A stretch of DNA of 64,000 bases from Massilia sp. PAMC28688 (lineage in GTDB: Bacteria; Pseudomonadota; Gammaproteobacteria; Burkholderiales; Burkholderiaceae_D). The DNA lies in NCBI RefSeq assembly GCF_019443445.1, contig NZ_CP080378.1:3534001-3598000 (forward strand), read 5' to 3'. Under the pieces are notes generated by a model. It was given only the letters and a program-made list of their open reading frames with translations. It was not told the origin of the DNA and did no database searches. The position numbers and the translations under genes are program-made. Of the stretch, positions 10,868 through 46,345 are shown in pieces; the first letter of the stretch is position 1, and each line of letters starts with the position of its first letter.

Positions 10868-12361
10868 TCAGTCGTCCAGCACGCCGTCGGCCTGCGAGTC
10901 GTCGAAAGTGGGTACGCCGGTGAGGATGCCGTGGAAGTTGGTGAGCACGTCGCCCACCGCGATACCCTGGCTGCTCATGCTGAACAGGCGGATGGTGCGC
11001 TCGTGCGGGCCGGCGCGCTTCTTGAAGACCGAGATCGCCTGGCGCACCTTGCCGCGCGCTTCAAAGTAGCGCAGCATGATCACGCCGTCGGCAATGTAGC
11101 TGGCGTCCACCGAGGTCGACATCGACATGCCGATCACGCCCGGCTGCACGCCCACCAGCAGCGTTACCACGCCGCGCTGGCCGAGGTAAGTGAGCAGCTC
11201 GTGCATATGGGTGGCCAAGAAGCGTTCATCCGGCATGGCCTTGAGGTAGCCGTTCAGGCTGTCGATTACGATTACTTTGGCGCCATCGGCCGCTGCGTCG
11301 GTGACCGACTGCATGAATTCACCGGGTGCCATTTCGGCCGGGTCGATCTGCTGAATCTTCAGGCGCCCGCTGTCGAGCGCACCCTGCAGGTCGATGCCAA
11401 GGCCGGTGGAACGCAGCAGCAGATTGTTGGCAGCTTCCTCGAACAGGAACATGGCAGCCTTGTCGCCACGCTGGGTGGCCGCGTACACATATTGCGCGCA
11501 CAAGGAGGACTTGCCGGTGCCGGGTGGACCGGAAATCAGGGTGCTGGTGCCTTCTTCGAGGCCGCCGCCGGTGAGGGCGTCCAATGCGGCGATCCCGCTC
11601 GAGAGCTGGCTGCGGGTGGCCGTGACGCGCGACGAGGCGGCGATCAGGCGCGGATACACGCACAAGCCGCCGGTGACGATCTTGTAGTCATGCGAACCGC
11701 CGCGAAAGGCGATGCCGCGGTACTTGACGATGCGCACCCGGCGCCGCTCGGAGCCGTAATCCTGGTTGATCAGTTCAAGTGTGATGACGCCATGCGCCAC
11801 GCTGCGCACCTGCAGGTCGCCGGACAGTGCGGTGCGGTCATCGAGGAACAGGGTGGTGCAGCCTTTGCCGGCCAGGTACTGCTTGAGGGCCAGCACCTGG
11901 CGCCGGTAGCGCAGGGGACTTTCGGCCAGCAGCTGCAGTTCGGACAGCGAGTCGAGCACCACGCGCGTTGGCTTGTACTTTTCGATGGCGTCGAGAATGC
12001 GCTGGGTGGTCATGCCCATTTCCACTTCGGACGGATGGAAAATGGTGAACTGCTGATCGGGATGAAGGATGTTCTCGTTAGGGATGATGTCCTCGACGTG
12101 AATGCCGTCCATCGACCAGCCGTGCGACAGCGCGACGGCCTTCAGTTCGACCATTGTCTCGGCCAGGGTGATGTAGATGACCGACTCGCCATTGCGCACC
12201 CCTTCGTGCAGGAACTGCAGCGCGAGGGTGGTCTTGCCCGTCCCCGGCTCGCCTTCGATGAGGAACAGCCGGTCGCTGGTCAGGCCGCCGCCCAGAATGG
12301 TGTCAAGGCCCGGCACGCCTGTGGACAGGAAGCGGTTGGTTTCGCTGTTTTGTTGCTCCAT
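10868..12361 (-). CDS. KaiC-like double RecA-fold ATPase
   Basis: 497-residue protein with two tandem KaiC domains. Walker A motifs are GEPGTGKTT (37-45) and GPPGTGKSS (278-286); catalytic acidic residues are E68 (TLAE) and E308/E309 (LFEE). The length is close to cyanobacterial KaiC (about 519). At the C-terminal autophosphorylation site the positions aligned by hand to S431/T432 of cyanobacterial KaiC are S421/Y422. No kaiA or kaiB is nearby; instead a hybrid histidine kinase follows in the same operon. In Proteobacteria such KaiC homologues are usually linked to two-component proteins and not proven to be clocks. Confidence 0.92.
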   Translation of the reverse strand: MEQQNSETNRFLSTGVPGLDTILGGGLTSDRLFLIEGEPGTGKTTLALQFLHEGVRNGESVIYITLAETMVELKAVALSHGWSMDGIHVEDIIPNENILHPDQQFTIFHPSEVEMGMTTQRILDAIEKYKPTRVVLDSLSELQLLAESPLRYRRQVLALKQYLAGKGCTTLFLDDRTALSGDLQVRSVAHGVITLELINQDYGSERRRVRIVKYRGIAFRGGSHDYKIVTGGLCVYPRLIAASSRVTATRSQLSSGIAALDALTGGGLEEGTSTLISGPPGTGKSSLCAQYVYAATQRGDKAAMFLFEEAANNLLLRSTGLGIDLQGALDSGRLKIQQIDPAEMAPGEFMQSVTDAAADGAKVIVIDSLNGYLKAMPDERFLATHMHELLTYLGQRGVVTLLVGVQPGVIGMSMSTSVDASYIADGVIMLRYFEARGKVRQAISVFKKRAGPHERTIRLFSMSSQGIAVGDVLTNFHGILTGVPTFDDSQADGVLDD

Positions 12362-12580
12362 GTAACGGGCCTTTGCGACGTGAGGTTTTATATATGCAAC
12401 TATTCTAATGGGATACTACTGAAACAGGCGCGCGAGAACGGTGCGCTTGTGAACATAACAATACACTTTGTCCTGCTCAGCTGATGGGAGACATCTGCGC
12501 AGACTTCTGATTTGGCGCAAGGCGCCAAGGGAATTTTTTCTCAGGCAGATTTTCCGCTTCATGACAGCGCCAAGCTCTGA

Positions 12581-12586
12581 TATAAT
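12581..12586 (+). promoter_or_regulatory. -10 box of the tRNA-Pro promoter
   Basis: A perfect TATAAT lies 11 bases before the mature tRNA 5' end, which puts the transcription start a few bases upstream of the tRNA. A convincing -35 is not seen; CTTCAT at 12557-12562 would give an 18-base spacer. Confidence 0.6.
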
Positions 12587-12597
12587 TCGCAACTCGT

Positions 12598-12674
12598 CGG
12601 GGCGTAGCGCAGCCTGGTAGCGTACTTGCATGGGGTGCAAGGGGTCGGAAGTTCGAATCTTCTCGCCCCGACCA
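12598..12674 (+). tRNA. tRNA-Pro (anticodon GGG)
   Basis: A 77-base cloverleaf can be folded by eye. Acceptor stem CGGGGCG pairs with CGCCCCG; D arm GCGC...GCGT; anticodon stem CTTGC/GCAAG with loop ATGGGGT giving anticodon GGG; T arm GGAAG TTCGAAT CTTCT. The 3' ACCA is encoded. It reads proline codon CCC (and CCU by wobble). It stands alone with its own promoter and terminator. Confidence 0.97.
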
Positions 12675-12690
12675 ATAGAATCAAAGACTT

Positions 12691-12716
12691 AGGCCAGCCT
12701 CCGTGCTGGCCTTTTT
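12691..12716 (+). terminator. Rho-independent terminator of tRNA-Pro
   Basis: An 8-base perfect stem (AGGCCAGC with GCTGGCCT) with a 6-base loop is followed by a run of T residues, 17 bases after the tRNA. This is a textbook intrinsic terminator. Confidence 0.88.
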
Positions 12717-12730
12717 CTCGTTGTAAAGTT

Positions 12731-13153
12731 TTGATGTGGCTACCCCTACGCATCGGGTAAGTTGTGGCGCCTCTTGATTGGACTCCGGTTTCTCGATGAT
12801 GAGCAGGTCATCAAGGTAGACTTTGACAAAGAAGAGGTAAGGCAACTATCACGCAACCTTCCCCTTTGTAGAGCAATGCGGCACCGGGATTAACAGCACT
12901 GAAACCGTTGGATTTGCGGCAAGAACAGCCAAGCAGAATCCTAGAACATGGCGGTCAGTGGCTTTTCCGAGTTCAGACCTTGAAAAAATGTCTTCTTCTC
13001 AAGCTGGTAATTTTCCCAGTTGAGGGACCTGCGGATGATGGCCCACGCAAGAACGCTTTTAAAGAGATCACCGACGAAATGACGAGTGCAGGAGCGGCGG
13101 TAAACGACTACGCTGACAAAACATCAATTTTGCAGAAGATCTCGGTCCACTGA
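12731..13153 (+). other. Lower-GC stretch with decayed coding remnants
   Basis: This region has no gene with a good start. On the plus strand one open frame (about 12731-12892) reads LRFLDDEQVIKVDFDKEEV before stopping; a second frame continues from about 12842 to 13025 with protein-like composition; a third (12908-13153, 81 codons from TTG, no Shine-Dalgarno) ends in a hydrophilic segment KEITDEMTSAGAAVNDYADK. GC content is visibly lower than in the flanking genes. Overlapping interrupted frames next to a tRNA suggest remnants of an inserted element, but no integrase or att repeat was found. Confidence 0.35.
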
Positions 13154-13177
13154 TTTGCTGTGAGGCTTGCCACCCTT

Positions 13178-13573
13178 TTACTTCACCATGGTGCGCAAAG
13201 GCTCATCGTACTCGACGAACAGCCTCCCGTTGCGAGCCAGCCAGCATTCAGTGAGGCGCTTTGCTTCGAGAGGATTATCGTGAAAAATGCGAACTCGCAT
13301 GGCGAACACTTTGTCAAACCGCTGGAGTCCTGGATCGAAGGACTCCAGGGACGCCAAAACGAAGGCGGCACGCGATACGTTAACGAACTCTGCGTTTCGC
13401 TTGGCCGCTACGGCGATCATTTTTGGTGAGCGGTCTATTCCAACGTAAATGCCGTTTTTGAGCTGCCGACAAATCAGGGAAGCGGCAATGCCATGCCCAC
13501 AGCCAATCTCGAGAATCCGGTCGTTTGGCTGGACATGCATCGCCTCCACAAACTTTTGAATGCGATTTGACAC
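13178..13573 (-). CDS. Short class I SAM-dependent methyltransferase
   Basis: 131-residue protein with the Rossmann motif I ILEIGCGHGIAASLI (residues 20-34) and acidic residue D47 in VGIDRSPKMI, which together bind S-adenosylmethionine. The start is GTG at 13573 with AGGAGA a few bases upstream. Methyltransferases with this fold usually run to 180 residues or more, so the C-terminal part of the sheet and substrate region may be missing; the gene ends beside the decayed low-GC stretch. The substrate is unknown. Confidence 0.7.
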   Translation of the reverse strand: MSNRIQKFVEAMHVQPNDRILEIGCGHGIAASLICRQLKNGIYVGIDRSPKMIAVAAKRNAEFVNVSRAAFVLASLESFDPGLQRFDKVFAMRVRIFHDNPLEAKRLTECWLARNGRLFVEYDEPLRTMVK

Positions 13574-13691
13574 GGGATGTCTCCTCGTCTCGGCCAGGCG
13601 TGGACGTACGCGATCATTGCCCAGTCAAAGGTGGGAAAGATGAACCAGGCAGTACCGCTGTGGTAGAGCTGGTGACTGCCCGGCCTGATCG

Positions 13692-13802
13692 TCAAGCGTT
13701 GCTCGGAAGCAGGACCAGAAATACCAGCGACAGGCCGGCCAACAAGGCCCCCTGAAGACTGAGCACGATTGCGGGAATACGAAGCTCTGTAGGGATTTTC
13801 AT
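13692..13802 (-). CDS. Tiny hydrophobic membrane peptide (36 aa)
   Basis: A 37-codon frame starts at ATG 13802 with GTGAGG upstream and encodes MKIPTELRIPAIVLSLQGAL followed by a strongly hydrophobic tail (about 22 residues, one membrane span). It could be a genuine single-span peptide, or the 5' end of a truncated membrane-protein gene. It sits 118 bases upstream of the methyltransferase on the same strand. Confidence 0.35.
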   Translation of the reverse strand: MKIPTELRIPAIVLSLQGALLAGLSLVFLVLLPSNA

Positions 13803-14016
13803 ATCGACCTCACTTTCGTTAGGAGTGCCACCATGTTAAGCCCGGGCCGTTGCGCGATGATGTCGGTGAAAGCTAGACGAATTTGTAGGATCAGTCTGAA
13901 TTTGCGGCCACGGGAGCGAATGCTTGGCCTCTCGGTATCGAATGTGGGGCGCCGCACAGAGCGCAGCATCAGGGCCTCGTATCTTCGCATGACCAATCAA
14001 AGTCAAGGAGCAGCCC

Positions 14017-14187
14017 ATGCCAACCGGATCAAGCCCCAAGCGCGAGCGCGAGTTCAAGGAACTGGAAAGCAAATTCAAGAAGGAACACCGCTACCCCGGC
14101 CGGGAAGAGGAGGTGGCCGCACGCATCGTTAACAAGCAGCGCGCGGAACACGGTGAAACCAAGGACGCCAAAGACAGTAAGAAGTAA
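14017..14187 (+). CDS. Small charged KRERE-type protein (56 aa)
   Basis: A 56-residue, very hydrophilic protein starts at ATG 14017 with CAAGGAG upstream. It begins MPTGSSPKREREFKELESKF and contains a helix ending AARIVNKQRAEHG. This resembles a widespread family of small basic proteins beginning M-P-x-G-S-x-K-R-E-R and often annotated as plasmid-stabilisation or Rho-N-like; function unknown. It ends one base before the convergent VWA gene. It is a real gene judging by codon use and ribosome binding site. Confidence 0.75.
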   Translation: MPTGSSPKREREFKELESKFKKEHRYPGREEEVAARIVNKQRAEHGETKDAKDSKK

Positions 14188-14188
14188 C

Positions 14189-15334
14189 TCAGGCCGCTAT
14201 CGCGATATTGTTCTGCGCGGCCCATGCCGACATATCCTGCTTCTTGATGGCCGAGGCCATCAGATCGGGGAATTTGTCTGGCGTGCAGGCAAAGCACGGA
14301 ATGCCCAGCTGCGCAAAATGGGCAGCGTGGCGCCGGTCATAGCTCGGCGCGCCGCTGTCGTCGAGCGCAAGCAGGGCGATCATCTGCATGCCGCTGGCGG
14401 CCATAGCGGCGGCGCGGGAGAGCATCTGTGCAGCGTTGCCGCCCTCGTAGAGGTCGCTGATCAGCACGAAGATCGTTTCCTGGGGGCGTTTGACCAGCCC
14501 CTGGCAGTACGCCAGCGCCTTGTCGATATCGGTGCCGCCCCCAAGCTGCGTGCCGAACAGCACCTCCACCGGGTCTTGCAGCAGCGGGGTCAGGTCAACC
14601 ACGGCGGTGTCGAACACCACCACCTGCGTGCTGACCGCCTTGATGCTCGCCAGGACCGCCGCGAACACGCTGGCATACACCACGGATGGGGCCATTGACC
14701 CGCTCTGGTCCACGCACAGCACAATGTCGCGCAAGCTCTGGCTCTTGCGCGCAAAGCCCACGCGCGTTTCGGGAATGATGGTCTGGTAGTCCGCCTGGTA
14801 ATGCTTGAGGTTGGCGCGAATGGTACGCAGCCAGTTGATCTCGTTGTGCCGCGGACGGTTGTTGCGCGCCGCCCGGTTCAGACTTCCGCTCACGGCTTGC
14901 CGCAACGGATTGGCCAACTTGCGCTCCAGCTCTTCCACCACCACGCGGACTACCTGGCGTGCCGTGTCCTTGGTCTTGCGCGGCATCATGTGATTGAGCG
15001 AGAGCAGGGTGGCCACCAGGTGCACGTCCGGCTGCACGCTGCGCAGCATTTCCGGCTCCAGCAGCATGCGCTCCAGGCCGAGGCGCTCCATGGCGTCCTT
15101 TTGCATCACCTGCACCACGCTGGAAGGAAAATACTCGCGGATGTCGCCCAGCCAGCGCGCGACGTTCGGCGCGGACCCACCCAGGCCGCCCCGTCCCTCC
15201 TGCTTGTCGTACAGGGCCGACAAGGTGCGCTCCAGCGCCGCATCTTGTGGCGGCAGTGGCAGGTTGTCCGCTTCGCTCCCCAGCAGCAGGCGCCAGCGCC
15301 GTGCCAGCGCCTCCTTTGTGATCTCGGTACTCAT
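14189..15334 (-). CDS. VWA-domain protein of MoxR-linked operon
   Basis: 381-residue cytosolic protein. Residues 1-195 are helical and of unknown fold; residues about 200-370 form a von Willebrand factor A domain with a complete MIDAS metal site: D209, S211, S213 (DQSGS), T268 (GGGT) and D294 (LISD). VWA proteins encoded with MoxR AAA ATPases (as in ChlD/ChlI, NorD/NorQ or ViaA/RavA) act as metal-dependent adaptors for the ATPase. It is the last gene of a five-gene operon, its start overlapping the DUF5682 stop as ATGA. The target is unknown. Confidence 0.88.
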   Translation of the reverse strand: MSTEITKEALARRWRLLLGSEADNLPLPPQDAALERTLSALYDKQEGRGGLGGSAPNVARWLGDIREYFPSSVVQVMQKDAMERLGLERMLLEPEMLRSVQPDVHLVATLLSLNHMMPRKTKDTARQVVRVVVEELERKLANPLRQAVSGSLNRAARNNRPRHNEINWLRTIRANLKHYQADYQTIIPETRVGFARKSQSLRDIVLCVDQSGSMAPSVVYASVFAAVLASIKAVSTQVVVFDTAVVDLTPLLQDPVEVLFGTQLGGGTDIDKALAYCQGLVKRPQETIFVLISDLYEGGNAAQMLSRAAAMAASGMQMIALLALDDSGAPSYDRRHAAHFAQLGIPCFACTPDKFPDLMASAIKKQDMSAWAAQNNIAIAA

Positions 15335-17553
15335 GCTGCTTCCTCGGTTGGTGCGCGCGGTCCTGTCAAGAGATGGAGGATGGGCAGCACGAGCGCGGCG
15401 CGCTGCTCATCTACTTCGCTGGCCACGGCCGCCTGCGGGAGCGCGGCGCTGCCGTGCACCACACGCTCGCCCAGCTGGCGTCGCTCGGCCGCTTCAAAGG
15501 TGGAAAAGGTGCGGCGCAGCAGCGGCAGCAGTTCCACAAAGGCGTCGTCGCTCAGGCCAGCCACCCAGCCGTGCAGGATTTGCCATAAGGCGTCGTTAAC
15601 GATCAGGAGCAGGCCGCTGCCGCGCAGGAAGCCTTCGAGCCACTCGGCTGTCGCACTCGGGTTGACGGGATTGGTACAGGCCAGCGACAGCGCCTGCGCG
15701 CACTGCTCCACGCTCCAGTACTCCTGCTCAAACAGCAGGCGCACGGCGCGCCCGGCGATGAGGGCGTGGGCCTGCAGCCGCACACACTCGGCCAGGGCCG
15801 CGTGCCATGCGGCCTTGTGCTCGGGATGTTGCAGCAGCGACAGCGCACTGTCAGCCTGGATCATTTTGCCAAGCAGTGCCTGCGCCGCTTCTTCATTGAT
15901 GCCGCGTGCGGCCACCGGCAGGGCGATGCAGGCGCGCTGCACCAGACCATCGACCACCGTGCCGACGCTGCCTGTGTCGGTGCCGCGCACATTCCCGTAG
16001 CGAAGAACGTTGGCCAGTGGCGCCACCGCAGCGAGCAGCATGCCGGCGTCATGGGTGCCGGCAGCGATGGCTTGCATGCGCTCCATGAGCACCGGTACGG
16101 CCAGGCGCACGTCGGCCAGCAGCATGCCTTCGACCAGCGCGGTCAGCTCCGGCAGCTGCTGCACCTGGCTGGCCTTGTGGCGCAAGAAGCCGTCGCACGC
16201 CAGTTCCAGTGTCGCGCCCCAGACATTGGCCTCGATGAGTTTCAGTTCGAAGTCCGGTTCCCACGCCAGCACCCAGCGCTCGTGAAAGCTGCCGCTCTTG
16301 CCGCTGACGGTGCGGGTCTTGCCCCAGTCGATGCCCAGCAACTGCAGGCGATGCAGGAAGGTGCTTTTTTCGAGCTGGCTTGTCTGGCGCAGGTCCAGGT
16401 CCAGGTCCACCTGGTCAGCGCGCGGCGCCATGCGCAGGCGCTTTTGCAGCTGGCGTACGTCCTGCGTCAGGGGCAGCGTGGGCGTGGCCGCGGGCACCGC
16501 TCCCAGCCTGTCATTGACGAGCAGCTCGCGCTCGATCAGCCGCAAGGGTGCATCGCTGTCGCCGAACAGCACGCTTTGCAGCGCTTCGAGCAGTTCGCCC
16601 AGGCCAGCGCGCGAGCGCTCGCGCAGGCTGGCCAGGGTGTCAGCCAGGCGCAGGGCCTCGATCACGTGCGCCGACGACGCGTCGAGCCCGTGATTGCGCA
16701 GCAGGCGCACAGCGTCCGTCAGCCAGTAGATCGATGCCTTGTGCGGCGTGTGCCACAGGTGGTGATACCAGCCCGGCGCCTGCACGCCGGCACCGTAGCC
16801 ACTGTCAAGACTGAGCCGCCCGTAGGTCCAGGGCGTCCAGGTGGCTGCCACCTTCGCCTTGGGCAGGTCGCTCAGCAGGTCCTTGTCATGTTTGGCGGTC
16901 GGCATCTGGCGCAATGCCGGCACGTGCCAGGCGCCGCAGATGACGGCGATGTTCTGGTGCCCCTGCTTGACGGCTTGCCGGATCATCTGGCGCATGTGGG
17001 CTTCGCGCTGTGCTTCGCGCGCAGGCAGCGGATCGTTCAGCGCATGGCGGGCCACCGTCATCATTTCTTCGATGGCCGCGAACAGTTCCAGGCTGTCGTG
17101 GCGCTGTTCGACCAGGTGGTCCCACCAGGTCTCGGTATCGGCAAAGCCGGCTGCCTGCGCCAGTCCTGCCAGGGCGTCGCCGCTGGAGGAGACCTGGCGC
17201 GCCATTTCTTCGTCAGGCTCGTGCACCGTCATGCCGGCGGCCAGCGTGTGCGCCATGGGCAGGTCGATGAAGCGGGTCGGCACGCCATGCGCCTGGCCAT
17301 ATGAGATGGCTTGCCATTCGGGGGAGAACTGCGCGAACGGGAAGTACACGGCGTGCTGCGGCATGGCCGGTACGTAGACCAGCAGGGCCACCGGCGGCTT
17401 CATGTCTGCGTCGGCGGCGAGGCAGAGCAGGTCGTCGGCTTCCGGCGGGCCTTCGATGAGGATGGCGTCGGGCTGCAGCTGCTCGAGTGCCTGCGCCAGG
17501 CTGCGCGCGCAGCCCGGACCATGGTGGCGGATGCCGAACAGGTGGACCGTCAT
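15331..17553 (-). CDS. DUF5682 family protein, possible TraB/TIKI-like hydrolase
   Basis: 740-residue protein matching DUF5682. The N-terminal 220 residues carry two GxxH motifs, G7-H10 (FGIRHHGPG) and G207-H210 (CGAWH), with an acidic IEGPPE motif at 33-38 and an REAHMRQMI segment near 184. This arrangement is that of the TraB/TIKI/EreA-ChaN-like fold, whose members include metal-dependent hydrolases; that link is my inference. The remaining 520 residues are mostly helical with no motif I can name. It starts one base after the MoxR stop and overlaps the VWA start. Confidence 0.8.
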   Translation of the reverse strand: MTVHLFGIRHHGPGCARSLAQALEQLQPDAILIEGPPEADDLLCLAADADMKPPVALLVYVPAMPQHAVYFPFAQFSPEWQAISYGQAHGVPTRFIDLPMAHTLAAGMTVHEPDEEMARQVSSSGDALAGLAQAAGFADTETWWDHLVEQRHDSLELFAAIEEMMTVARHALNDPLPAREAQREAHMRQMIRQAVKQGHQNIAVICGAWHVPALRQMPTAKHDKDLLSDLPKAKVAATWTPWTYGRLSLDSGYGAGVQAPGWYHHLWHTPHKASIYWLTDAVRLLRNHGLDASSAHVIEALRLADTLASLRERSRAGLGELLEALQSVLFGDSDAPLRLIERELLVNDRLGAVPAATPTLPLTQDVRQLQKRLRMAPRADQVDLDLDLRQTSQLEKSTFLHRLQLLGIDWGKTRTVSGKSGSFHERWVLAWEPDFELKLIEANVWGATLELACDGFLRHKASQVQQLPELTALVEGMLLADVRLAVPVLMERMQAIAAGTHDAGMLLAAVAPLANVLRYGNVRGTDTGSVGTVVDGLVQRACIALPVAARGINEEAAQALLGKMIQADSALSLLQHPEHKAAWHAALAECVRLQAHALIAGRAVRLLFEQEYWSVEQCAQALSLACTNPVNPSATAEWLEGFLRGSGLLLIVNDALWQILHGWVAGLSDDAFVELLPLLRRTFSTFEAAERRQLGERVVHGSAALPQAAVASEVDEQRAALVLPILHLLTGPRAPTEEAA

Positions 17554-17554
17554 G

Positions 17555-18649
17555 TCACAGGACGGCGTGGCAGGCGCGGTACAGGTCTTTCCAGCCTTCG
17601 CGTTCCTTGACCACGGTCTCCAAATATTCGAGCATCACCAGGCGGTCCTGCACCGGGTCCTTGACGATGGCGCCGACCACTGACGACGCCATGTCGGCGC
17701 CGCGCAGGGTGCCGTCGCCGAAGTGCGCCGCCAGCGACATGCCGTTGGTGACAACCGAAATGGCTTCGGCCGTGCTCATGCTGGCCGATGGTGACTTCAG
17801 TTTGATCTTGCCGTCGTCGGTCTGGCCGGCGCGCAGTTCGCGGAAGATGGTGACGATGCGGCGAATCTCCTGCAGTGCCGGTTTTTCGATCGGCAGTTCC
17901 AGCGCGCGTCCCAGGCTGGCCACGCGCGTTTCCACGATCTGGACTTCTTCATCGGCGTTGTCGGGCAGGGGCAGTACCACCGTGTTGAAGCGCCGCTTGA
18001 GGGCGCTCGACAGGTCGTTGACGCCGCGGTCACGGTCATTGGCGGTGGCGATGACGTTGAAGCCTTTCTCGGCCTGCACGTACTGGTCCAGTTCCGGGAT
18101 CGGTAGCAGCTTTTCCGACAGCAGGCTGATGAAGCTGTCCTGCACTTCCGACGGGATGCGGGTCAGTTCTTCGATGCGGGCCATCTTCCCGGTGCGCATG
18201 GCGCGCATGACGGGGCTGGCGACAATGGCGTCCATGCTCGGGCCCTTGGCCAGCAGCTGGGCATAATTCCAGCCGTAGCGGATGGTTTCTTCCGCAGTGC
18301 CGGCAGTGCCTTGCACCACCAGTGTGGAATTGCCGCTGATGGCGGCGGCCAGGTGTTCGGACACCCATGATTTCGCCGTCCCCGGCACGCCCAGCAGCAG
18401 CAGGGCGCGGTCGGTGGCCAGGGTGGCCACGGCAATCTCGATGATGCGGCGCTTGCCGATGTACTTGGGCGTGATCTCGACGCCGTTGTCGAGCTTGCCG
18501 CCGAGCAGGTAGGTGGCCACCGCCCAGGGCGACATTTCCCAGTTGGGCGGCCGCTGGCGCTGGTCCATGTCTTTCAGCGCGGCCAGTTCATGGGCGTACT
18601 GCTGCTCGGCCTGCTGCCTCATGACCGTGTTGCTGTGGGGAGTGCTCAT
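17555..18649 (-). CDS. MoxR-type AAA+ ATPase
   Basis: 364-residue AAA+ ATPase. Walker A is GVPGTAKS (87-94); the Walker B position reads ARIEEL (E160-E161) instead of the usual hydrophobic-DE, a variant; sensor 1 is N204 (ATAND); an arginine finger lies at R219/R220 (LKRRF). The start at 18649 (MSTPHSN) is set by the ATGA overlap with the preceding gene; a longer upstream frame is excluded because it would lie inside that gene. MoxR ATPases remodel or load partner complexes, typically together with a VWA protein, here encoded two genes downstream. Confidence 0.9.
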   Translation of the reverse strand: MSTPHSNTVMRQQAEQQYAHELAALKDMDQRQRPPNWEMSPWAVATYLLGGKLDNGVEITPKYIGKRRIIEIAVATLATDRALLLLGVPGTAKSWVSEHLAAAISGNSTLVVQGTAGTAEETIRYGWNYAQLLAKGPSMDAIVASPVMRAMRTGKMARIEELTRIPSEVQDSFISLLSEKLLPIPELDQYVQAEKGFNVIATANDRDRGVNDLSSALKRRFNTVVLPLPDNADEEVQIVETRVASLGRALELPIEKPALQEIRRIVTIFRELRAGQTDDGKIKLKSPSASMSTAEAISVVTNGMSLAAHFGDGTLRGADMASSVVGAIVKDPVQDRLVMLEYLETVVKEREGWKDLYRACHAVL

Positions 18650-20208
18650 GCGTCGTCCTTTTCCAGAAAGCTCTTTTGCATTGTGTGTCGGAATTCGATG
18701 GTGTCGATCAGGGCATCCACCGGGCTGCGCCATTGCGGCCAGCGCTCCCAGCTGTCTTCGGGCCAGCCCTGGCGCACGTAGGCGGGGTCGCTGGCGTCGA
18801 GTACCCGCGCCAGCGTGCCGAAGTAGCCGCTGGCGGCAAACGATTGCTGCGGGTTGTCGCGCATGACGCGCTGGGCCGCCACCAGCATCGCGTGCGACAG
18901 GGCGGGCGGGAGCGCGTGGCCCAGCGTCTGCGCCCATAAGATGGCGTTGGGCATGCTGGCGCGGTTGTCGTTGCAGTCGTCAAGCCAGGTGCGCACGATG
19001 GCTTCCTGTTGTTCCAGCGGCAGCTGGTGAATGGCCGGCATCAGTGCGGCGCCGGGCAAAATGCCGGGATCGTGGCGCGTCACGCCGCCAATCAAGGTGG
19101 TCAGCCAGGCGCGCGATTCGTCGCGCGCGGCGCTGAAGGTGTTGGCGCAGGCGTTGACCAGGCCGTGCAACAGCGCGCTGCGAAAGTCGCTTGCGGCCAT
19201 GATCGCGAGCACCTGCTCGGGCGCCATGTGCCAGTGGCGGCTCCAGTACTCCGGTGGCACGGATTGCATGAGGTCTGCGAGCCATCCGGCCTTCTCGCCC
19301 AGCAGGTGATAGCTGCCGCTCCCGGCGCCGTCGCGCTTCATGGCTTTGTCGGCTTTCTCCGGCAGTGTGATCTCGAGCGCAGGCTGCGCAAGGCCGAGCA
19401 GGCGTGGCTTGAGGGTGAACAGGGCGCCCAACCGTGCGGCGCAGCGCTGGCTCAGCTGCGAACCGGGCAGGCTGGCCAGCAGTGCCAGCGCGACCGTGCG
19501 TACTTCCTTGCGCTTGTCGTCCAGCGCCGACTCCAGGAAGGCTTCATCGTGCTGCGACAGGCCGTGGCGCAGCATGGGCAGCAGCGCGGCGCGGCTTTCG
19601 GGCGGTTCCTGGGGCCAGCCTTGCTCGAGCAGGTGCAGGCCGGCGGCGGCATCACGCAGGCGCAGCTGGCGCAGCGCGTCGGTGCGGCGCGCCAGGGTGC
19701 CCAGTTCCCATTCACGCTCGAGCGCCTGGTGGGTGCAGGTGGCGGGCGCGTAGGCGTCGCGCCACTGCGGGTGCTGGGCGGTGAGCCACGCACCTCGCGC
19801 GCCCAGCACGGCGCTGATGGCCGGCCGCAGGGCGGACGTGCGCACGCCATGGTCGAGGACCGCTGGCAGGGCGCTGTGCGGCAGTGGCACTGCATGCCTG
19901 TGCGCCAGGGCCAGCCAGTTTTCCAGCAGCTCCGGGCGAATGCCGCGCAGGATCAGGTGTAACTGGTGCTCCGCAGCGCGGGGGCAGGGTGTTTCAGGTG
20001 CGGCTGGCTGGCGCGTCGCCACGCCAGTGTGCGGCTGCAGGCCGGCGCGCTGCCACAGCCTGACCGCGGCCACGACATGCCACAGGCGGTTATCGCGCTG
20101 CAGCGGTTCCAGCAGCGCTTGCAGGGCGGGGGCGGAGACGTGGCCGGCCAGCGGCACGCGCTCGGTGCCGGCCAGTATCGCCTTGTGAAGATCGATCTCA
20201 AAGCTCAT
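18646..20208 (-). CDS. DUF5691 family protein
   Basis: 520-residue protein matching DUF5691, a family I know only from this type of gene neighbourhood. It is leucine- and alanine-rich with repeated helical pairs (for example EFL-type helices around residues 190-260 with KRKEVRTVALALLASLPGS), suggesting a HEAT/ARM-like scaffold; this is inference. There is no signal peptide or membrane span. It overlaps both neighbours by ATGA (20205-20208 and 18646-18649), so it is translated in step with the SWIM and MoxR proteins. Confidence 0.82.
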   Translation of the reverse strand: MSFEIDLHKAILAGTERVPLAGHVSAPALQALLEPLQRDNRLWHVVAAVRLWQRAGLQPHTGVATRQPAAPETPCPRAAEHQLHLILRGIRPELLENWLALAHRHAVPLPHSALPAVLDHGVRTSALRPAISAVLGARGAWLTAQHPQWRDAYAPATCTHQALEREWELGTLARRTDALRQLRLRDAAAGLHLLEQGWPQEPPESRAALLPMLRHGLSQHDEAFLESALDDKRKEVRTVALALLASLPGSQLSQRCAARLGALFTLKPRLLGLAQPALEITLPEKADKAMKRDGAGSGSYHLLGEKAGWLADLMQSVPPEYWSRHWHMAPEQVLAIMAASDFRSALLHGLVNACANTFSAARDESRAWLTTLIGGVTRHDPGILPGAALMPAIHQLPLEQQEAIVRTWLDDCNDNRASMPNAILWAQTLGHALPPALSHAMLVAAQRVMRDNPQQSFAASGYFGTLARVLDASDPAYVRQGWPEDSWERWPQWRSPVDALIDTIEFRHTMQKSFLEKDDA

Positions 20209-21569
20209 GCGGCACGCTCGACGTCAAGCAGGTGCATGCGGCCGGCGCTGATGACCGACAGTGGCAGCAGCGCGTTGCCGTTCCACAGGCCGAACAGCGT
20301 GACGGGATGGCCCCCGGCGATGGCATGCAAGTGCCAGATCTTGCGAAAGGAGGTCGCCAGCGGCACGATCTCGCCGTCTTGCGTGTGCAGGGTCATCTGT
20401 TCCTCCGGTTGCAGCGCGATGGCCGGGGTGACCTGGGCCAGCAGCATGGGGCAGCTGTCCAGAAACGGGTTGAGCGCAAGCGCCTGGGCATGGTGCTGCA
20501 GGCACGCGGCCAGAGCGGGCGGGTCAAGCGAAAGCGCATGGGCTGGTGCCAGCTGTACGTCGTCGCCCATCACGGCGCGCAGCGGCACCGCGCCCGGGTA
20601 GAAATGGAACGTGCCGGCTTGACAGGTGCCCGGCAGAAGCGGCGGGGGCAGCGGCTGGGAGCCGGCCGCGAACTGCAACAGCATGGCCCAGCGGCCCGTG
20701 GTGCGCCCGCGCAGGTAGCACGCCCGGCGTGCAATCCGCCCATCGTCCTGGGTGTGGTTGCCCCACACGTCCCAGCTGTCGTGGATGCCGGGCTGGGCCA
20801 GCACTTCCTCGTGGCTCATGGACCAGCCGATCGCGGTCTTGACGTCGTGCGCCAATGCCTCGGGTAATTGTGGCAGGCGGCGGTAGGCATCGGCCAGCAA
20901 GGCTAGTTGGCCGAGTTCGCCGGCTACTTCCGGCTCCCAGCCGCTGGTGCTGGAACCATAGATCAGCATGCCGACGCGGCGCACGCGTGAAGCAAGGCCC
21001 GGCGCTTGTGTATCGACCAGGCGCGCGGCGATGGCTTCCCAGTCGCGTGCGCTTTTGCTGCGCAGACCTGCCAATCCTTCGCGTGCCAGGTCGGCCAGCC
21101 AGATATCGAGCACGGCAAGGCCCGATTCGACATTGCCCTGGCGCTTTTCTTGCCGCTTTTGCTGGCTCTGGACCTTGGCGGCCAGTTCTTGCGGCGACAG
21201 GTCGGCATGCTGCGTTTCTTTGGCGGCTTTTTTCTCAGAGCGCTGTTCGCGGCTCTTGAACCAGTCGCTCACCCAGGCGGGGAGTGCTGTTTCCGTGAAG
21301 GCAGCGCCGTCCGCAGCATACAAGAGGTAAAGGCCAAGCCCGTGCTTGCAGGGGAACTTGCGGCTGGGGCAGGTGCATTTGAATGCCGGACCGGCCAGGT
21401 CTATCTGCGCCCGGTAGGGTTCTTTGCCGCTCCCCTGGCACAGTCCCCACAGCGCTTGCGCGTGGCCGCCGAGGCCTGACCATTTGGCGCGGCTGGCCTG
21501 GGCACTGCCGGCCTTGGCCGACGAGGCGTCTGGCGCCAGGGCGAGAATCTGGTCTGCGGTGAGAGACAT
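20205..21569 (-). CDS. SWIM zinc-finger protein, first gene of MoxR/VWA operon
   Basis: 454-residue protein with a SWIM zinc finger near the N terminus: C65, C67, C74, H76 in the pattern CxCx6CxH (KCTCPSRKFPCKHGLGL). SWIM domains bind DNA or proteins. A charged, lysine- and glutamine-rich helix follows at about 105-145 (REQRSEKKAAKE, QSQQKRQEKRQG), then a long C-terminal region without known motifs. It is the promoter-proximal gene of the five-gene operon and may be its target-recognition component; this is inference. Confidence 0.85.
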   Translation of the reverse strand: MSLTADQILALAPDASSAKAGSAQASRAKWSGLGGHAQALWGLCQGSGKEPYRAQIDLAGPAFKCTCPSRKFPCKHGLGLYLLYAADGAAFTETALPAWVSDWFKSREQRSEKKAAKETQHADLSPQELAAKVQSQQKRQEKRQGNVESGLAVLDIWLADLAREGLAGLRSKSARDWEAIAARLVDTQAPGLASRVRRVGMLIYGSSTSGWEPEVAGELGQLALLADAYRRLPQLPEALAHDVKTAIGWSMSHEEVLAQPGIHDSWDVWGNHTQDDGRIARRACYLRGRTTGRWAMLLQFAAGSQPLPPPLLPGTCQAGTFHFYPGAVPLRAVMGDDVQLAPAHALSLDPPALAACLQHHAQALALNPFLDSCPMLLAQVTPAIALQPEEQMTLHTQDGEIVPLATSFRKIWHLHAIAGGHPVTLFGLWNGNALLPLSVISAGRMHLLDVERAA

Positions 21570-21596
21570 TGCAATACGGGAAAAAAACGATCGCTG

Positions 21597-21626
21597 ATTC
21601 TAGCACCATGGTTGAGCAAAAGATAA
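21597..21626 (-). promoter_or_regulatory. Candidate promoter of the SWIM-MoxR-VWA operon
   Basis: On the minus strand an extended -10 (TGCTAGAAT, core at 21597-21602) lies about 30 bases before the SWIM start codon. A TTATCT at 21621-21626 would be an 18-base-spaced, weak -35. It is the only promoter-like sequence in this 96-base gap. Confidence 0.45.
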
Positions 21627-21665
21627 GGTTTTGTTGCCCATGGCCGAACGTGGCGTTTGGCAGGG

Positions 21666-22349
21666 TCAAGCGCATGCCAGGCCCGGCTGTAAAGGCTGCT
21701 GTGGCAGAACACGCTGCGCACCGTGGCAGCGCCTGGAGCCCATCTGGCGCCGCAGGTCGAGAACGCCACGCCGGATCCAGGTCTTGACCGTGCCCAGCGG
21801 CTTTTGAAGCTTTGCCGCCACTTCTTCGTGGGTCAATTCCTGCATGTACGCCAATTCGATCGCCTGGCGTTGGGTAGCGAGCAGTTGGTGCAGACAGCGC
21901 GCGACTTCCGAGGTGCGTTGGCGCGATTCCAGCAGGCTACAGGGTGAGTGAGCAATGTTTTCTTCATGCGTGCAGTCGAAGAAAAAATGGTCGTCGGCAT
22001 TGGCACGCACGCGCTGAGCACGAAAATGATCAAAGGTTTTGTGGCGCACGATGGCGCTCATCCAGGTCATCGGGCTGGCGTGATGGAATTCGTAAGTGTG
22101 GGCTTGGCGCCAGATGGCAATCAGGCTTTCCTGCACGATATCATCCACGATGTCGTGCTGACTGGTCAGGCGCATGACGCAGCGCCGCAGACGGGGCGCA
22201 ACCAGGGTGTACAGTTGGGCAAATGCGCGCGGGTCGGCCCGGGCGCAGGCGGCCAGCAGCGCGGCGAGTTCCGCACTGGCCCGGCCGCTGGCTTGCGGGT
22301 TCGTGCGCAACCGGACAAGCGGTTGGATAAGGTCAATCTCGGGTCGCAT
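21666..22349 (-). CDS. ECF-type RNA polymerase sigma factor
   Basis: 227-residue sigma-70 family factor of the extracytoplasmic function group. Region 2 spans roughly residues 45-115 (DIVDDIVQESLIAIWRQA), region 4 about 165-215 (LAYMQELTHEEVAAKLQKPLGTVKTWIRRG). The region 4 form resembles the SigK-like group. The ATG at 22349 is preferred over longer in-frame starts because it gives a normal N-terminal length. No anti-sigma gene is adjacent, which is unusual for this group. Confidence 0.88.
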   Translation of the reverse strand: MRPEIDLIQPLVRLRTNPQASGRASAELAALLAACARADPRAFAQLYTLVAPRLRRCVMRLTSQHDIVDDIVQESLIAIWRQAHTYEFHHASPMTWMSAIVRHKTFDHFRAQRVRANADDHFFFDCTHEENIAHSPCSLLESRQRTSEVARCLHQLLATQRQAIELAYMQELTHEEVAAKLQKPLGTVKTWIRRGVLDLRRQMGSRRCHGAQRVLPQQPLQPGLACA

Positions 22350-22594
22350 GGGTGGTTGGTCCTGTTGCGGCGCAGGGCACGCCTGGATAGCCTCCCTGTT
22401 ATAGGCGGTGTTCCGAATCGCGTATGTGGGGTAGCTAACGTTTGTAAGTAAATGTGAGCGCAACTCCGGGATGCAGGCGGGTCAGTAGCGGGTCGTGAGC
22501 GGTATGCCGCATCCATCCTGAAGCATGCGGTACGGATACTGCTGAATGACACGCCATCGCCTTTTCCACTAAGATTGCAGCAGAGGTGATTGAT

Positions 22595-23161
22595 ATGACT
22601 CCGCAGATTCTCGCTCTCGATATTGCCGGCAATCCGTTTGACTGGATTTCGGCCCAGGACGCTGTCCACTACTACGCCACCAACAAGGTGGCGTGGGAGC
22701 TTGGCGACCGTGAATTCCTGTTCCGTGGTGGCGTCTCGAATGCCGGTGTGCTGTCGACGCTGACGGTCAAGCCCATCATTGCCATCTCGGGCAGTGAGCG
22801 CATGGCGCGCATTTTGCGGCAGGAGTTGCCACTGGGCGATGACAACAGCTTATTGTTTGCCCGTGACCGTCATACCTGCGCATTCTGCGGCAACGTGTTC
22901 GCACGGCAGCATTTATCGCGTGATCATGTGCTCGCACGCAAGCATGGGGGAAAGGATACCTGGACCAATTGCGTGACCGCCTGCAAGACATGTAATCAGG
23001 CCAAGGGATCGAAATTCATCCACGATTTCAGGCCGCTGCTGTACGTGCCATACGCGCCATGTCGCTTCGAACATTTCATCCTCAGCGGCCGCCATGTGCT
23101 TGCAGATCAGCACGATTACCTGTCGGCCAAGCTTCCCAAGCATTCGCGTTTGCTGGCGTGA
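22595..23161 (+). CDS. HNH endonuclease
   Basis: 188-residue protein with an HNH nuclease domain at about residues 90-140: two CxxC zinc knuckles (CAFC and CKTC) surround DHVLARKHGGKDTWTN, the beta-beta-alpha metal catalytic core. HNH proteins cut DNA and serve in restriction, repair or mobile elements; this stand-alone type is common and functionally uncharacterised. The ATG at 22595 follows AGAGGTG at 6 bases; an in-frame GTG at 22586 lies within that site. Confidence 0.88.
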   Translation: MTPQILALDIAGNPFDWISAQDAVHYYATNKVAWELGDREFLFRGGVSNAGVLSTLTVKPIIAISGSERMARILRQELPLGDDNSLLFARDRHTCAFCGNVFARQHLSRDHVLARKHGGKDTWTNCVTACKTCNQAKGSKFIHDFRPLLYVPYAPCRFEHFILSGRHVLADQHDYLSAKLPKHSRLLA

Positions 23162-23357
23162 GCGCTCCATGTCGGCGCATCCGCCCAGGCGCCGGACAAA
23201 AAAGAGGTATTTTGCACAAGAGAATCTGTCCCTGCCCGGGGCGGGGAGTGTCTGCCGCATCCGCCGGGCGAAGGGTCGCGCACGACGTTGGCGGTACTGC
23301 GCAACTTGCGTCCCCGTCTGACGGTCCAATGATTGAAACGCTATCGAAGGAGTGCAT

Positions 23358-24119
23358 ATGACTAAGAAATTGTTGGTCGGGTTGGCTGCGTTGGCAGTGA
23401 GCAGCGTTGGGTGGGCGCAGACGCCGCCTGTTCCTGGCGATCCAAAGACACCCAAGACCATGGCGCTGGAAGCTGGTGCCAAAGTGTTGCAATCGAACAC
23501 GCCGCTGAAGCCTTTCGATGTCTACATAGTCGGGTTTCATCCGATGAAAGAGCAGCCCGAGCATCAAATGGAGGCGCATCATTACTGTCACCAGGTCAAT
23601 GAGGATTTTGCTCAGTGCGCCCTGTTTGACAGCAGCACAAAAAACGCGCGGCTCAACGGCGTGGAATACATCATCTCGGAAAAGCTGTTTGCCACCCTGC
23701 CGGCAGAGGAACGGGCATTCTGGCATCCTCATAACGGCGAAATTCTTTCTGGCCAATTGATCGCGCCGGGCATTCCTGCCGCTGCCGAGAAAGCCTTGAT
23801 GCGCCAAAAGATGAACAGTTACGGCAAAACGTGGCACCTGTGGAATACCGGGCACGAAGGCATGGCGGCTGATCAGTTGCCACTGGGACCAGCAAAGCTG
23901 GCCTGGTCGTTCAGCCGGGATGGGGAAGCCATTCCCGCGATGATTGAAAGGCGCGACCGGCGAATGGATGTGAGCACGGCGAAAAAGCGCCAGCAGCGTG
24001 CCGATTTGCAGCAACTGGCCAAACCGCAAGACGGTGTGGATGCTTTGAAGGGCAAGTTCGGGCGGCCCACGACAGACATTCCCGGGGTGCGAGCTGCCAC
24101 GGCAGGTGGCAATCCTTGA
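23358..24119 (+). CDS. DUF1264 (OBAP-like) exported protein
   Basis: 253-residue protein with a signal peptide ending in VGWAQ (about residue 21). The body contains the DUF1264 signature as I know it: FHPMKEQPEHQMEAHHYCHQ and ISEKLFATLPAEERAFWHPHN, with many conserved histidines that could bind metal. The plant relatives are oil-body-associated proteins; the bacterial role is unknown. The ATG at 23358 has GAAGGAG upstream. The C-terminal 50 residues are charged and likely disordered. Confidence 0.82.
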   Translation: MTKKLLVGLAALAVSSVGWAQTPPVPGDPKTPKTMALEAGAKVLQSNTPLKPFDVYIVGFHPMKEQPEHQMEAHHYCHQVNEDFAQCALFDSSTKNARLNGVEYIISEKLFATLPAEERAFWHPHNGEILSGQLIAPGIPAAAEKALMRQKMNSYGKTWHLWNTGHEGMAADQLPLGPAKLAWSFSRDGEAIPAMIERRDRRMDVSTAKKRQQRADLQQLAKPQDGVDALKGKFGRPTTDIPGVRAATAGGNP

Positions 24120-41946: not shown

Positions 41947-42192
41947 TGCCGGCTACGGCGACACCCTTGCCGTAAAAGGTCGTCGTCAAGACGCCTTCCA
42001 CGATAGGATACGTGCCCTTGCACTGCGGGCAAGACACCTTGTGACCCATGTAAGCGATGGGTTGGCCATGACAGATATCGGTCAGCGATCCTTCCAGCAC
42101 CGTGCCGCCGTGATTGGTCGGGTCGCCTTTGCGAATGATTTCACCAGCCATGTGTTGTTCCTGCAAAGTAATCGGCAAGCCGAGAGTGAGGA

Positions 42193-42843
42193 TTATTGTT
42201 CCAATGGGACCCGGCAGTTAATGCCTGCCCGAATGGGGCTACCCTTACTGCTGCATAGCGGCAAAGCAGGCAATTCGACCTCTTCAAGAACTTCGTTTTT
42301 ATCGTTGATGATGTAGCCTTGGCCACCCACGAAATCAGAATCATGGCAGTCTCCGCTGTCACACTGGGAAGTACATCCAATGCACACCAACGCATGCCCG
42401 TCCTTGAATGATTTGCACTGGTCGTAGATTGGCGGGACGAGGACGCGGAACGGTGCGCGTTCGTAGTAGCCGCACTTGGAAATCGTCTCATTGTTGGCAT
42501 CCTTCGCTAAATACCCGAACCGGCCAGTTTCGCCATCAGTTGGCTCGAAGTCGAATTCTAAAACTTGCCCATATCTGTGGCGTAATACCGTTCCATTCCT
42601 CAAAATCGTAACCAGTTCCGGCGGATTAGAGATGACAACGGACGTGGAACGCTCGCGACCTATCACTAAGTTTTTCCTGAATTCCTTCTTTACCGTCCTA
42701 ACCGCGCGCGTCGTGTCGAAGCATTTTCCAGACCACACGCGGTTTACGTTCGTGAGCGGGCATTTGTGCGCTCCTGATGCCGTCGCGACTTGCAGCAGCA
42801 TGACAAAAATAAAAACGACCCTCATATGCATGGGAGTGCTCAT
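42193..42843 (-). CDS. Exported Cys-rich protein, putative Tae4 immunity protein
   Basis: 216-residue protein with a signal peptide (hydrophobic core VVFIFVMLLQVA, cleavage after about ASGA). The mature part has about ten cysteines and a WG-repeat-like stretch (VPPIYDQCKSFKDGHALVC then GYIINDKNEVL). Its ATG overlaps the effector stop as ATGA (42840-42843), the arrangement expected for effector and immunity genes. Known Tai4 proteins are shorter and also periplasmic; similarity to them is not visible by eye, so the immunity role is inferred from position and export. Confidence 0.65.
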   Translation of the reverse strand: MSTPMHMRVVFIFVMLLQVATASGAHKCPLTNVNRVWSGKCFDTTRAVRTVKKEFRKNLVIGRERSTSVVISNPPELVTILRNGTVLRHRYGQVLEFDFEPTDGETGRFGYLAKDANNETISKCGYYERAPFRVLVPPIYDQCKSFKDGHALVCIGCTSQCDSGDCHDSDFVGGQGYIINDKNEVLEEVELPALPLCSSKGSPIRAGINCRVPLEQ

Positions 42844-43514
42844 TTCAGTTCCCAAAATTGGATATGTTGAACCTGGACCAAAAACTTCTTCTTAGTTTCC
42901 TTGTTTATGCCTACAGTGGTTAGCCAAGGATAGAAGCTACGCGACTGGGGGTCGTCATGATCATTTGCGAAGGCAAGCTTTCGAGCCGTGCCATCCCAAA
43001 GAGTGAAATGCCCGGTCGCATTGCTCCAACCTTCCACCTTGAAAACAATAATTCCGTTTTTTGATAGGAGATGCGTCTTGAAAAACTCCGTCGCCTTGGC
43101 TTTACGAGCCTCGAACTGGACCGTTAGAGCGTCTTCATCCTCGGCCAGTGCGGTGTCGAGTAATTCGAATGACAACTCCGCGTCAAACCCCTTGAAGCGC
43201 GCAACTAACTCGGCACGCAAGTCTGCCACGCGCAGCCAATACCATCGCTTGTCAGCCCCCAATTTGCTCGCCGCGGGATCCGACGTTCTGGATAACCCAA
43301 ATCCACTTCGAAGGAGGGCATAGGACATTCGAACCGCGCACGTATTCTCCATCCAGGAATGCTTATGGGCGCCCTTAAATTGGTTGCCGATCTTTGTATA
43401 CAATTCCTCGGTTTCGATTTCCTTTCCTGGATAATGAGTATGCATGTCTGCCCAAGAAGGTCGCCGTGGAGCGATCGATCCGGTGGCGTTGCCTGCGGTC
43501 GCTGTAATAGCCAA
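42840..43514 (-). CDS. Tae4-like T6SS amidase effector
   Basis: 224-residue protein matching the Tae4 peptidoglycan amidase family. Catalytic C59 lies in ENTCAVRMSYALLRSG and H169 in GWSNATGHFTLWDG, both family signatures; D174 follows. Tae4 cleaves the D-Glu-mDAP bond of peptide stems in the periplasm of target cells. The start is TTG at 43514 with GAAAGG upstream, kept because the family motif RPSWADMHTHYP lies before the first ATG. An extra charged helical segment (about 115-150) makes it longer than the Salmonella enzyme. Lower GC than the neighbours suggests horizontal transfer. Confidence 0.88.
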   Translation of the reverse strand: MAITATAGNATGSIAPRRPSWADMHTHYPGKEIETEELYTKIGNQFKGAHKHSWMENTCAVRMSYALLRSGFGLSRTSDPAASKLGADKRWYWLRVADLRAELVARFKGFDAELSFELLDTALAEDEDALTVQFEARKAKATEFFKTHLLSKNGIIVFKVEGWSNATGHFTLWDGTARKLAFANDHDDPQSRSFYPWLTTVGINKETKKKFLVQVQHIQFWELK

Positions 43515-43590
43515 GTTAACCTTTCGCCTGAAATCCGATATTCAAAGATTAATCTTGTCGCGATTGTAAATGTTTTGCTCTCGACATAAA

Positions 43591-43617
43591 AAAAGCGCCG
43601 GGACGACCGGCGCTTTT
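43591..43617 (-). terminator. Terminator of acnA
   Basis: An 11-base perfect stem (AAAAGCGCCGG with CCGGCGCTTTT) with 5-base loop and a T tract on the minus strand lies 20 bases after the acnA stop. Confidence 0.9.
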
Positions 43618-43636
43618 AACTTTGCACAAGATTGCG

Positions 43637-46345
<2,709 letters not shown>

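Follow-up and report, generated by a model that had tools for sequence, protein, structure and literature searches.

According to the accessible part of PMC3893208, YehL is one of seven MoxR subfamilies, the MoxR proteins of known role act in the maturation of metal enzymes (CoxD, for example, in that of the [CuSMoO2] cluster), and a chaperone-like role is supported for other subfamilies. In pairs such as CoxD/CoxE, NorQ/NorD, ChlI/ChlD and RavA/ViaA, an AAA+ motor works with a VWA cofactor, and MoxR-VWA cores have been proposed in conflict systems in the portion of PMC7159879 consulted. In Escherichia coli K-12, yehL (MoxR), yehM (DUF5682), yehP (VWA) and yehQ (SWIM) follow one another, with yehI (DUF4132) upstream. 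Here we analyze a related five-gene operon of Massilia sp. PAMC28688, located in a stretch of 64,000 nucleotides (NZ_CP080378.1, positions 3,534,001 to 3,598,000; hereafter the window). The source genome is one contig of 5,455,977 bases with a single DUF5682 copy; among named relatives, Duganella and Massilia are closest. The operon reads SWIM-DUF5691-MoxR-DUF5682-VWA, its five genes are a real unit, and its MoxR protein belongs, as judged from sequence identity, to the YehL group.

The MoxR-DUF5682-VWA core stands in the same order in both loci, and a SWIM protein is also present in E. coli. Identity to the studied proteins is 41% for MoxR and YehL, 32% for DUF5682 (about the first 450 residues) and 35% for VWA. 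In contrast, no DUF5691 gene was found by family search at the yeh locus or in the E. coli control genome, the SWIM gene lies at the end rather than the start, and a DUF4132 gene is located upstream. The similarity between YehQ and the studied SWIM protein is confined to the SWIM motif (24 columns in hhalign). The MoxR comparison covered YehL-type proteins, RavA and two further AAA_5 proteins of the same genome; the studied MoxR is 40-46% identical to nine YehL-type proteins over 354-376 residues, versus 23-24% over 197-230 residues for the two AAA_5 proteins, and RavA gave no real match. The yehL-yehQ genes also occur, within the chromosomal yehI-btsR region, on a record labelled as an E. coli plasmid (CP137936.1, 90110-103483; L231), which may be a fragment of the chromosome or a replicon that has integrated.

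Adjacency of MoxR, DUF5682 and VWA in this order was found in the studied operon, in E. coli and in 19 of 20 fetched relatives; in the exception (L055), the contig ends shortly after DUF5682, where a YehF-like open reading frame (ORF) begins. Ten of the 20 have the layout of the studied operon (type I). In six, DUF4132 genes precede the core (type II), and in three, one of them via a weak match, the type II arrangement is followed by a terminal YehQ-type SWIM gene (type III). One relative (L038) has a second, partial VWA match downstream. In both the DUF5682 and the MoxR tree, type I forms a single clade (25 and 11 rows, respectively; 100/100 each), and the boundary between types II and III is blurred. 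Since DUF5691 is absent and DUF4132 is present beside the E. coli core, we consider the core constant and its partners exchangeable. We do not propose that DUF5691 and DUF4132 are related; their hhalign alignment spans just 30 columns (E 0.007).

To assess the five-gene set, species genomes were scanned with the DUF5682 alignment, giving at least 580 confirmed relatives, and the best 80 were annotated with iterated profiles. Sixty-four of these were assessable, having at least 4300 bases of DNA upstream and at least 1500 downstream of DUF5682, and 16 with short flanks were set aside. All five genes were present in the order of the studied operon in 57 of the 64, a figure biased towards type I because the 80 are the loci most similar to the studied DUF5682. 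The five-family matches share one strand at every annotated locus, and by taxonomic labels the complete loci span at least 12 phyla: Pseudomonadota, Cyanobacteriota, Planctomycetota, Verrucomicrobiota, Chloroflexota, Thermomicrobiota, Bacteroidota, Acidobacteriota, Actinomycetota, Armatimonadota, Deinococcota and Thermodesulfobacteriota. Tight spacing, with a possible start -40 to +30 nt from the upstream stop, was seen at junctions 1-4 in 50/63, 48/68, 48/72 and 58/69 loci. In two Planctomycetota, SWIM and DUF5691 form one open frame (L065, 977 amino acids; L122, 994 amino acids). Since both the arrangement and the tight spacing recur, the arrangement is not due to chance. Among annotated records, Rhizobium sp. 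K102 has all five genes consecutively, Deinococcus taeanensis has all five with a small hypothetical gene between the AAA ATPase and DUF5682, and Methylosinus trichosporium has the first four visible in an incomplete gene table. In Hymenobacter radiodurans (NZ_CP037921.1, 86059-88324), DUF5682 is annotated as three pieces, possibly a broken copy.

SWIM is missing from all seven incomplete loci and VWA from four of them (L073, L102, L118 and L135). A search for these two families found SWIM elsewhere in five of the seven genomes and VWA elsewhere in all four; several of these genomes are draft assemblies with contig ends near these genes. Three of the 57 complete loci have an internal gap of more than 1 kb (L105, L120 and L127). 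Within 9-kb flanks, other neighbors of the operon are not conserved across loci, and a recurrent sixth gene (974-996 amino acids) was seen only in seven Chitinophagaceae loci. In L120 it lies between DUF5682 and VWA, and this copy, the only one scanned, encodes a DUF4132/HEAT protein; in the other six (L090, L092, L093, L094, L097 and L101) the gene is positioned after VWA. This sixth gene links type I to the other types because the scanned copy is a DUF4132/HEAT protein. In single loci, other genes were inserted or adjacent. Those in L105 look esterase- and cyclase-like by eye. Variovorax sp. OK212 (L127, 4625-8944) has genes for an HSP90-like ATPase and a protein with a weak TPR match between MoxR and DUF5682, and Variovorax sp. 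OV700 (L112, 2207-4252) has an HtpG-like ORF upstream of SWIM; a chaperone link is possible from these two related cases.

A second sample, 299 genomes taken evenly across the phylum with the studied genome among them, removes most of the bias of the first list. DUF5682 was found in 12 of the 299, six of which carry type I (>650 bits). DUF5691 above the cut-off and full-length SWIM (>200 bits) each occur in exactly these six genomes, where SWIM, DUF5691 and DUF5682 share contigs within a few kilobases. Left uncounted were two DUF5691 matches below the cut-off (G267, G068) and, for SWIM, six matches that were partial or confined to the motif (G121, G220, G248, G268, G319, G299). In G299 (L151; C2:1018759-1019223), which has no counted DUF5691 or DUF5682, the SWIM match covers profile positions 5-143 only (145 bits), possibly a stand-alone use of the N-terminal part. 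DUF4132 occurs in nine of the 299 genomes, comprising all seven with type II/III DUF5682 and two without DUF5682 (G066, G258), and in none of the five with type I DUF5682 only; the family search found no DUF4132 in the studied genome. Types I and II can share a cell, as both were fetched from G008 and both are in G254, and four genomes of the studied genus, G008 among them, have three DUF5682 genes each. The statement of the initial annotation that the five proteins act as one system is therefore supported by the 57 of 64 loci, by co-occurrence in the same six of 299 genomes and by the SWIM-DUF5691 fusions; the homologs are usually found together, not separately. Its overall interpretation is partly supported; it overlooked the yehL-yehM-yehP-yehQ relative and the exchange with DUF4132.

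Pfam assigns a domain to each of the five proteins, and NCBIfam and PADLOC scans gave nothing specific. The SWIM match sits exactly on its cut-off (19.6 bits), and the zinc ligands C65, C67, C74 and H76 (CxCx6CxH) are invariant in 38 of 38 rows; outside the zinc finger, the protein has no Pfam family. DUF5691 (PF18944, E 6e-113; 123 proteins in the relatives search) is predicted to be an all-helical, HEAT/ARM-like solenoid, which would suit a scaffold or adaptor and agrees with the scaffold suggested earlier. MoxR matches AAA_5 (E 9e-37) with a Walker A motif (G87-V-P-G-T-A-K93), an acidic pair (E160, E161), N204, and R219 and R220, and the 381-residue VWA protein matches VWA_CoxE (PF05762, E 6e-50) with a complete metal ion-dependent adhesion site (MIDAS; D209-Q-S211-G-S213, T268 and D294). 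The alignments show that both the AAA+ and the MIDAS residues are retained, which upholds the pairing of an AAA+ ATPase with a VWA partner. In DUF5682 (E 5e-261), an N-terminal alpha/beta domain (about residues 1-270), which holds H10, E34, D97, E149 and H210, is followed by a helical solenoid (about residues 400-702). Mean pairwise identity over 64 rows (the studied operon and 63 loci) decreases from MoxR (72.5%) through VWA, DUF5682 and SWIM to DUF5691 (27.8%), a gradient that reflects a fixed motor plus a fast-changing solenoid. Mantel correlations between the five families in the same rows are 0.64 to 0.86, a figure that includes shared species history and is not taken as proof.

The initial annotation called DUF5682 a possible metal hydrolase. 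TIKI/TraB/EreA-type hydrolases are marked by a pair of GxxH motifs together with a conserved Glu. Among 58 DUF5682 rows, position 7 is Gly in 55 (Pro in three), H10 is present in 57, and E34, G207 and H210 are invariant; the 58 rows cover all three layouts, and none of them departs from E34, D97, E149, R183, E184 or H210. The N-terminal domain seems to resemble these hydrolases at a few key positions, with a conserved His and Glu near the N terminus, a GxxH ending a later strand and a weak fold match to 2rad, and it differs from them in the large additional helical solenoid. The assignment as a metal hydrolase is plausible from these residues, whereas profile comparisons with TraB, EreA and ChaN were not significant (the ChaN set of four rows was poorly chosen and uninformative), a Foldseek search gave no significant match, and a PDB sequence search returned only ATP synthase b chains and similar proteins at E 0.07 or worse. 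The absence of other hydrolases from the VIA-align list carries no evidential weight. Elsewhere, the studied genome has an EreA-family gene (4269561-4270637) and a TraB-family gene (1862382-1863182).

We tentatively favor a reading, without calling it probable, in which the operon encodes one protein-remodeling machine of the YehL group, composed of an adaptor, a MoxR/VWA remodeler and DUF5682 as a metal-dependent hydrolase. The SWIM-DUF5691 pair would be the client-binding adaptor that presents the client, and in the sister systems DUF4132 proteins would take its place. The MoxR ring, coupled via VWA, may use ATP to pull on or re-fold the client. DUF5682 would then cleave or hydrolyze the client in a metal-dependent manner through its TIKI/TraB/EreA-like H...E...GxxH N-terminal domain, while its C-terminal solenoid may dock it to the complex. 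We divide the roles in this way because of the identity gradient, the SWIM-DUF5691 fusions and the exchange with DUF4132.

The main rival, which we regard as possible but doubtful, is that the operon encodes a maturation chaperone like CoxD/CoxE or NorQ/NorD, in which MoxR-VWA opens a client enzyme for entry of a metal or cofactor and DUF5682 handles the metal or its ligand without cleaving the client. The membership of the studied VWA protein in the CoxE family is in line with this. Judging from map position and gene name, we take E. coli molR to be the DUF4132 locus beside yehLMPQ. A reported effect of molR on molybdate use (Lee 1990, as cited in the accessible parts of PMC8533742 and PMC4245954) is a hint in the same direction, as is the maturation of metal enzymes by MoxR proteins of known role such as CoxD (PMC3893208, same portion). 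However, the 9-kb flanks hold no client enzyme gene that keeps a fixed position from locus to locus; the sole neighbor to do so is the DUF4132-type gene of the seven Chitinophagaceae loci, and the studied genome itself has no DUF4132 match. In addition, the studied set differs from CoxD/CoxE and like pairs by its three further proteins.

An anti-phage or conflict system, in which SWIM/DUF5691 would detect an invader, MoxR-VWA would set the threshold and DUF5682 would be the effector, is less likely, and the evidence is mixed. As in the MoxR-vWA ternary systems proposed as conflict systems by Kaur et al. (2020) in the part of PMC7159879 consulted, MoxR AAA+, VWA and further partners lie in one operon. 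Of the third components described there (VMAP, inactive STAND, FtsH, beta-propeller), a Pfam scan of the five proteins found none, and the main text of PMC7159879 does not mention DUF5682, DUF5691, SWIM or yeh. A bpMoxR match covers only 50 of 205 positions within the AAA+ domain (27.8 bits, cut-off 27). The distribution is patchy (13 of 60 relatives, the studied genome included), the DUF5682 tree mixes phyla, and the family is present in 36 of 72,556 records of a plasmid collection (chromosome-sized in some cases), all of which would suit a conflict system; only one of 50,697 phage records was positive, and no variable effector part was seen. A 14.2-kb fecal record labelled 'Bacteriophage sp.' (MT835988.1, 10638-12758) carries a DUF5682 relative with 28% identity and may be a bacterial fragment.

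The initial annotation had asked whether the genes cluster near defense genes. From 704 flanking ORFs, 413 were within size and distance limits, 146 were chosen and 37 of these were discarded on visual inspection because they overlapped or looked doubtful; the remaining 109 match 71 PADLOC families, versus 30 for 109 control ORFs from 19 of 20 Pseudomonadota stretches (E <= 1e-5). Strong flank matches among those listed are Orf5, HEC-06, mREase_IV and SspE (two ORFs each) and, via Pfam, GmrSD (two ORFs); the best control match is 7e-31 among the matches listed. However, this is a rough comparison, with the control taken from Pseudomonadota alone and the flanks from many phyla, and the excess stems from few ORFs, many PADLOC models being alternatives for one protein. 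The SspA and DndA matches (four ORFs each) may simply reflect ordinary enzymes of the aminotransferase family, as four ORFs match Aminotran_5. The five proteins themselves fit no defense model and have no PADLOC-DB 2023 match of note (the best E-values, 0.0099 and 0.021, both belong to the AAA+ protein). That DUF5682 is a non-enzymatic, structural arm of the MoxR-VWA complex, in a machine that only remodels or disassembles its client, is quite improbable: its large helical solenoid, its non-significant hydrolase homology and the placement of its gene, flanked by those for the motor and VWA in 19 of the 20 fetched relatives, are compatible with such a role, but the invariant polar residues E34, D97, E149, R183, E184 and H210 exceed the needs of a scaffold.

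The coordinates of the operon and its boundaries are listed in Table 1.

Table 1 Features of the five-gene operon and its borders, numbered from the first position of the window
Feature	Coordinates	Strand	Length	Basis or remark
SWIM gene	20205-21569	minus	454 aa	ORF
DUF5691 gene	18646-20208	minus	520 aa	ORF
MoxR gene	17555-18649	minus	364 aa	ORF
DUF5682 gene	15331-17553	minus	740 aa	ORF
VWA gene	14189-15334	minus	381 aa	ORF
Intergenic region, candidate promoter region	21570-21665	minus	96 nt	precedes SWIM gene
Convergent small ORF	14017-14187	plus	56 aa	marks operon 3' end; outside the system

The genes run head to tail from 21569 to 14189 on the minus strand, joined as first described by 4-base overlaps at 20205, 18646 and 15331, with the single base 17554 separating MoxR from DUF5682. 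For MoxR, the ATG at 18649, which overlaps the DUF5691 stop, was taken as the start; the mechanical ORF begins at 18937. No sigma-70-like promoter was matched in the region ahead of SWIM. The stop of an extracytoplasmic function (ECF) sigma factor gene (21666-22463, minus strand) lies 96 nt ahead of the operon, and flank clustering showed that this gene does not recur beside the operon in other loci. Further upstream are genes for an HNH endonuclease (22586-23161, plus strand) and a DUF1264 protein (23352-24119, plus strand), and a KaiC-family ATPase gene (10868-12361, minus strand) is located downstream. The G+C content is 52.5% at 42001-44000 and 54.1% at 12001-14000, versus 58-68% in the remaining 2-kb blocks of the window.

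No published function covering the full set was found in the literature searched, in line with the initial annotation, although the single-term search was swamped by a personal name; searches for DUF5682, for DUF5691 and for a SWIM domain with MoxR found no literature. YehL-type MoxR proteins are already known by name; the five-gene type I set and the exchange of partners are undescribed in that literature. It is conceivable, but uncertain at best, that the loci of many phyla represent one hitherto undescribed class of ATP-dependent processing machine, built from a MoxR/VWA motor, the new metallohydrolase family DUF5682 and interchangeable adaptors (SWIM-DUF5691 or DUF4132/WGR). If such adaptors choose the client, two or three of these machines may work in parallel in a single cell.

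MoxR AAA+ proteins are widespread, and clients are known for only a minority of them. The five-part system occurs in at least 12 phyla and has a distant four-gene relative in E. coli K-12, a strain in which genes are readily deleted and tagged, so that its function is testable there. Showing a hydrolase activity of DUF5682, or identifying the client, would explain a protein set that is common in bacteria, and the same evidence would tell whether MoxR/VWA pairs drive processing and not folding alone. The connection to DUF4132 would also bring the old molybdate observation on molR back into question.

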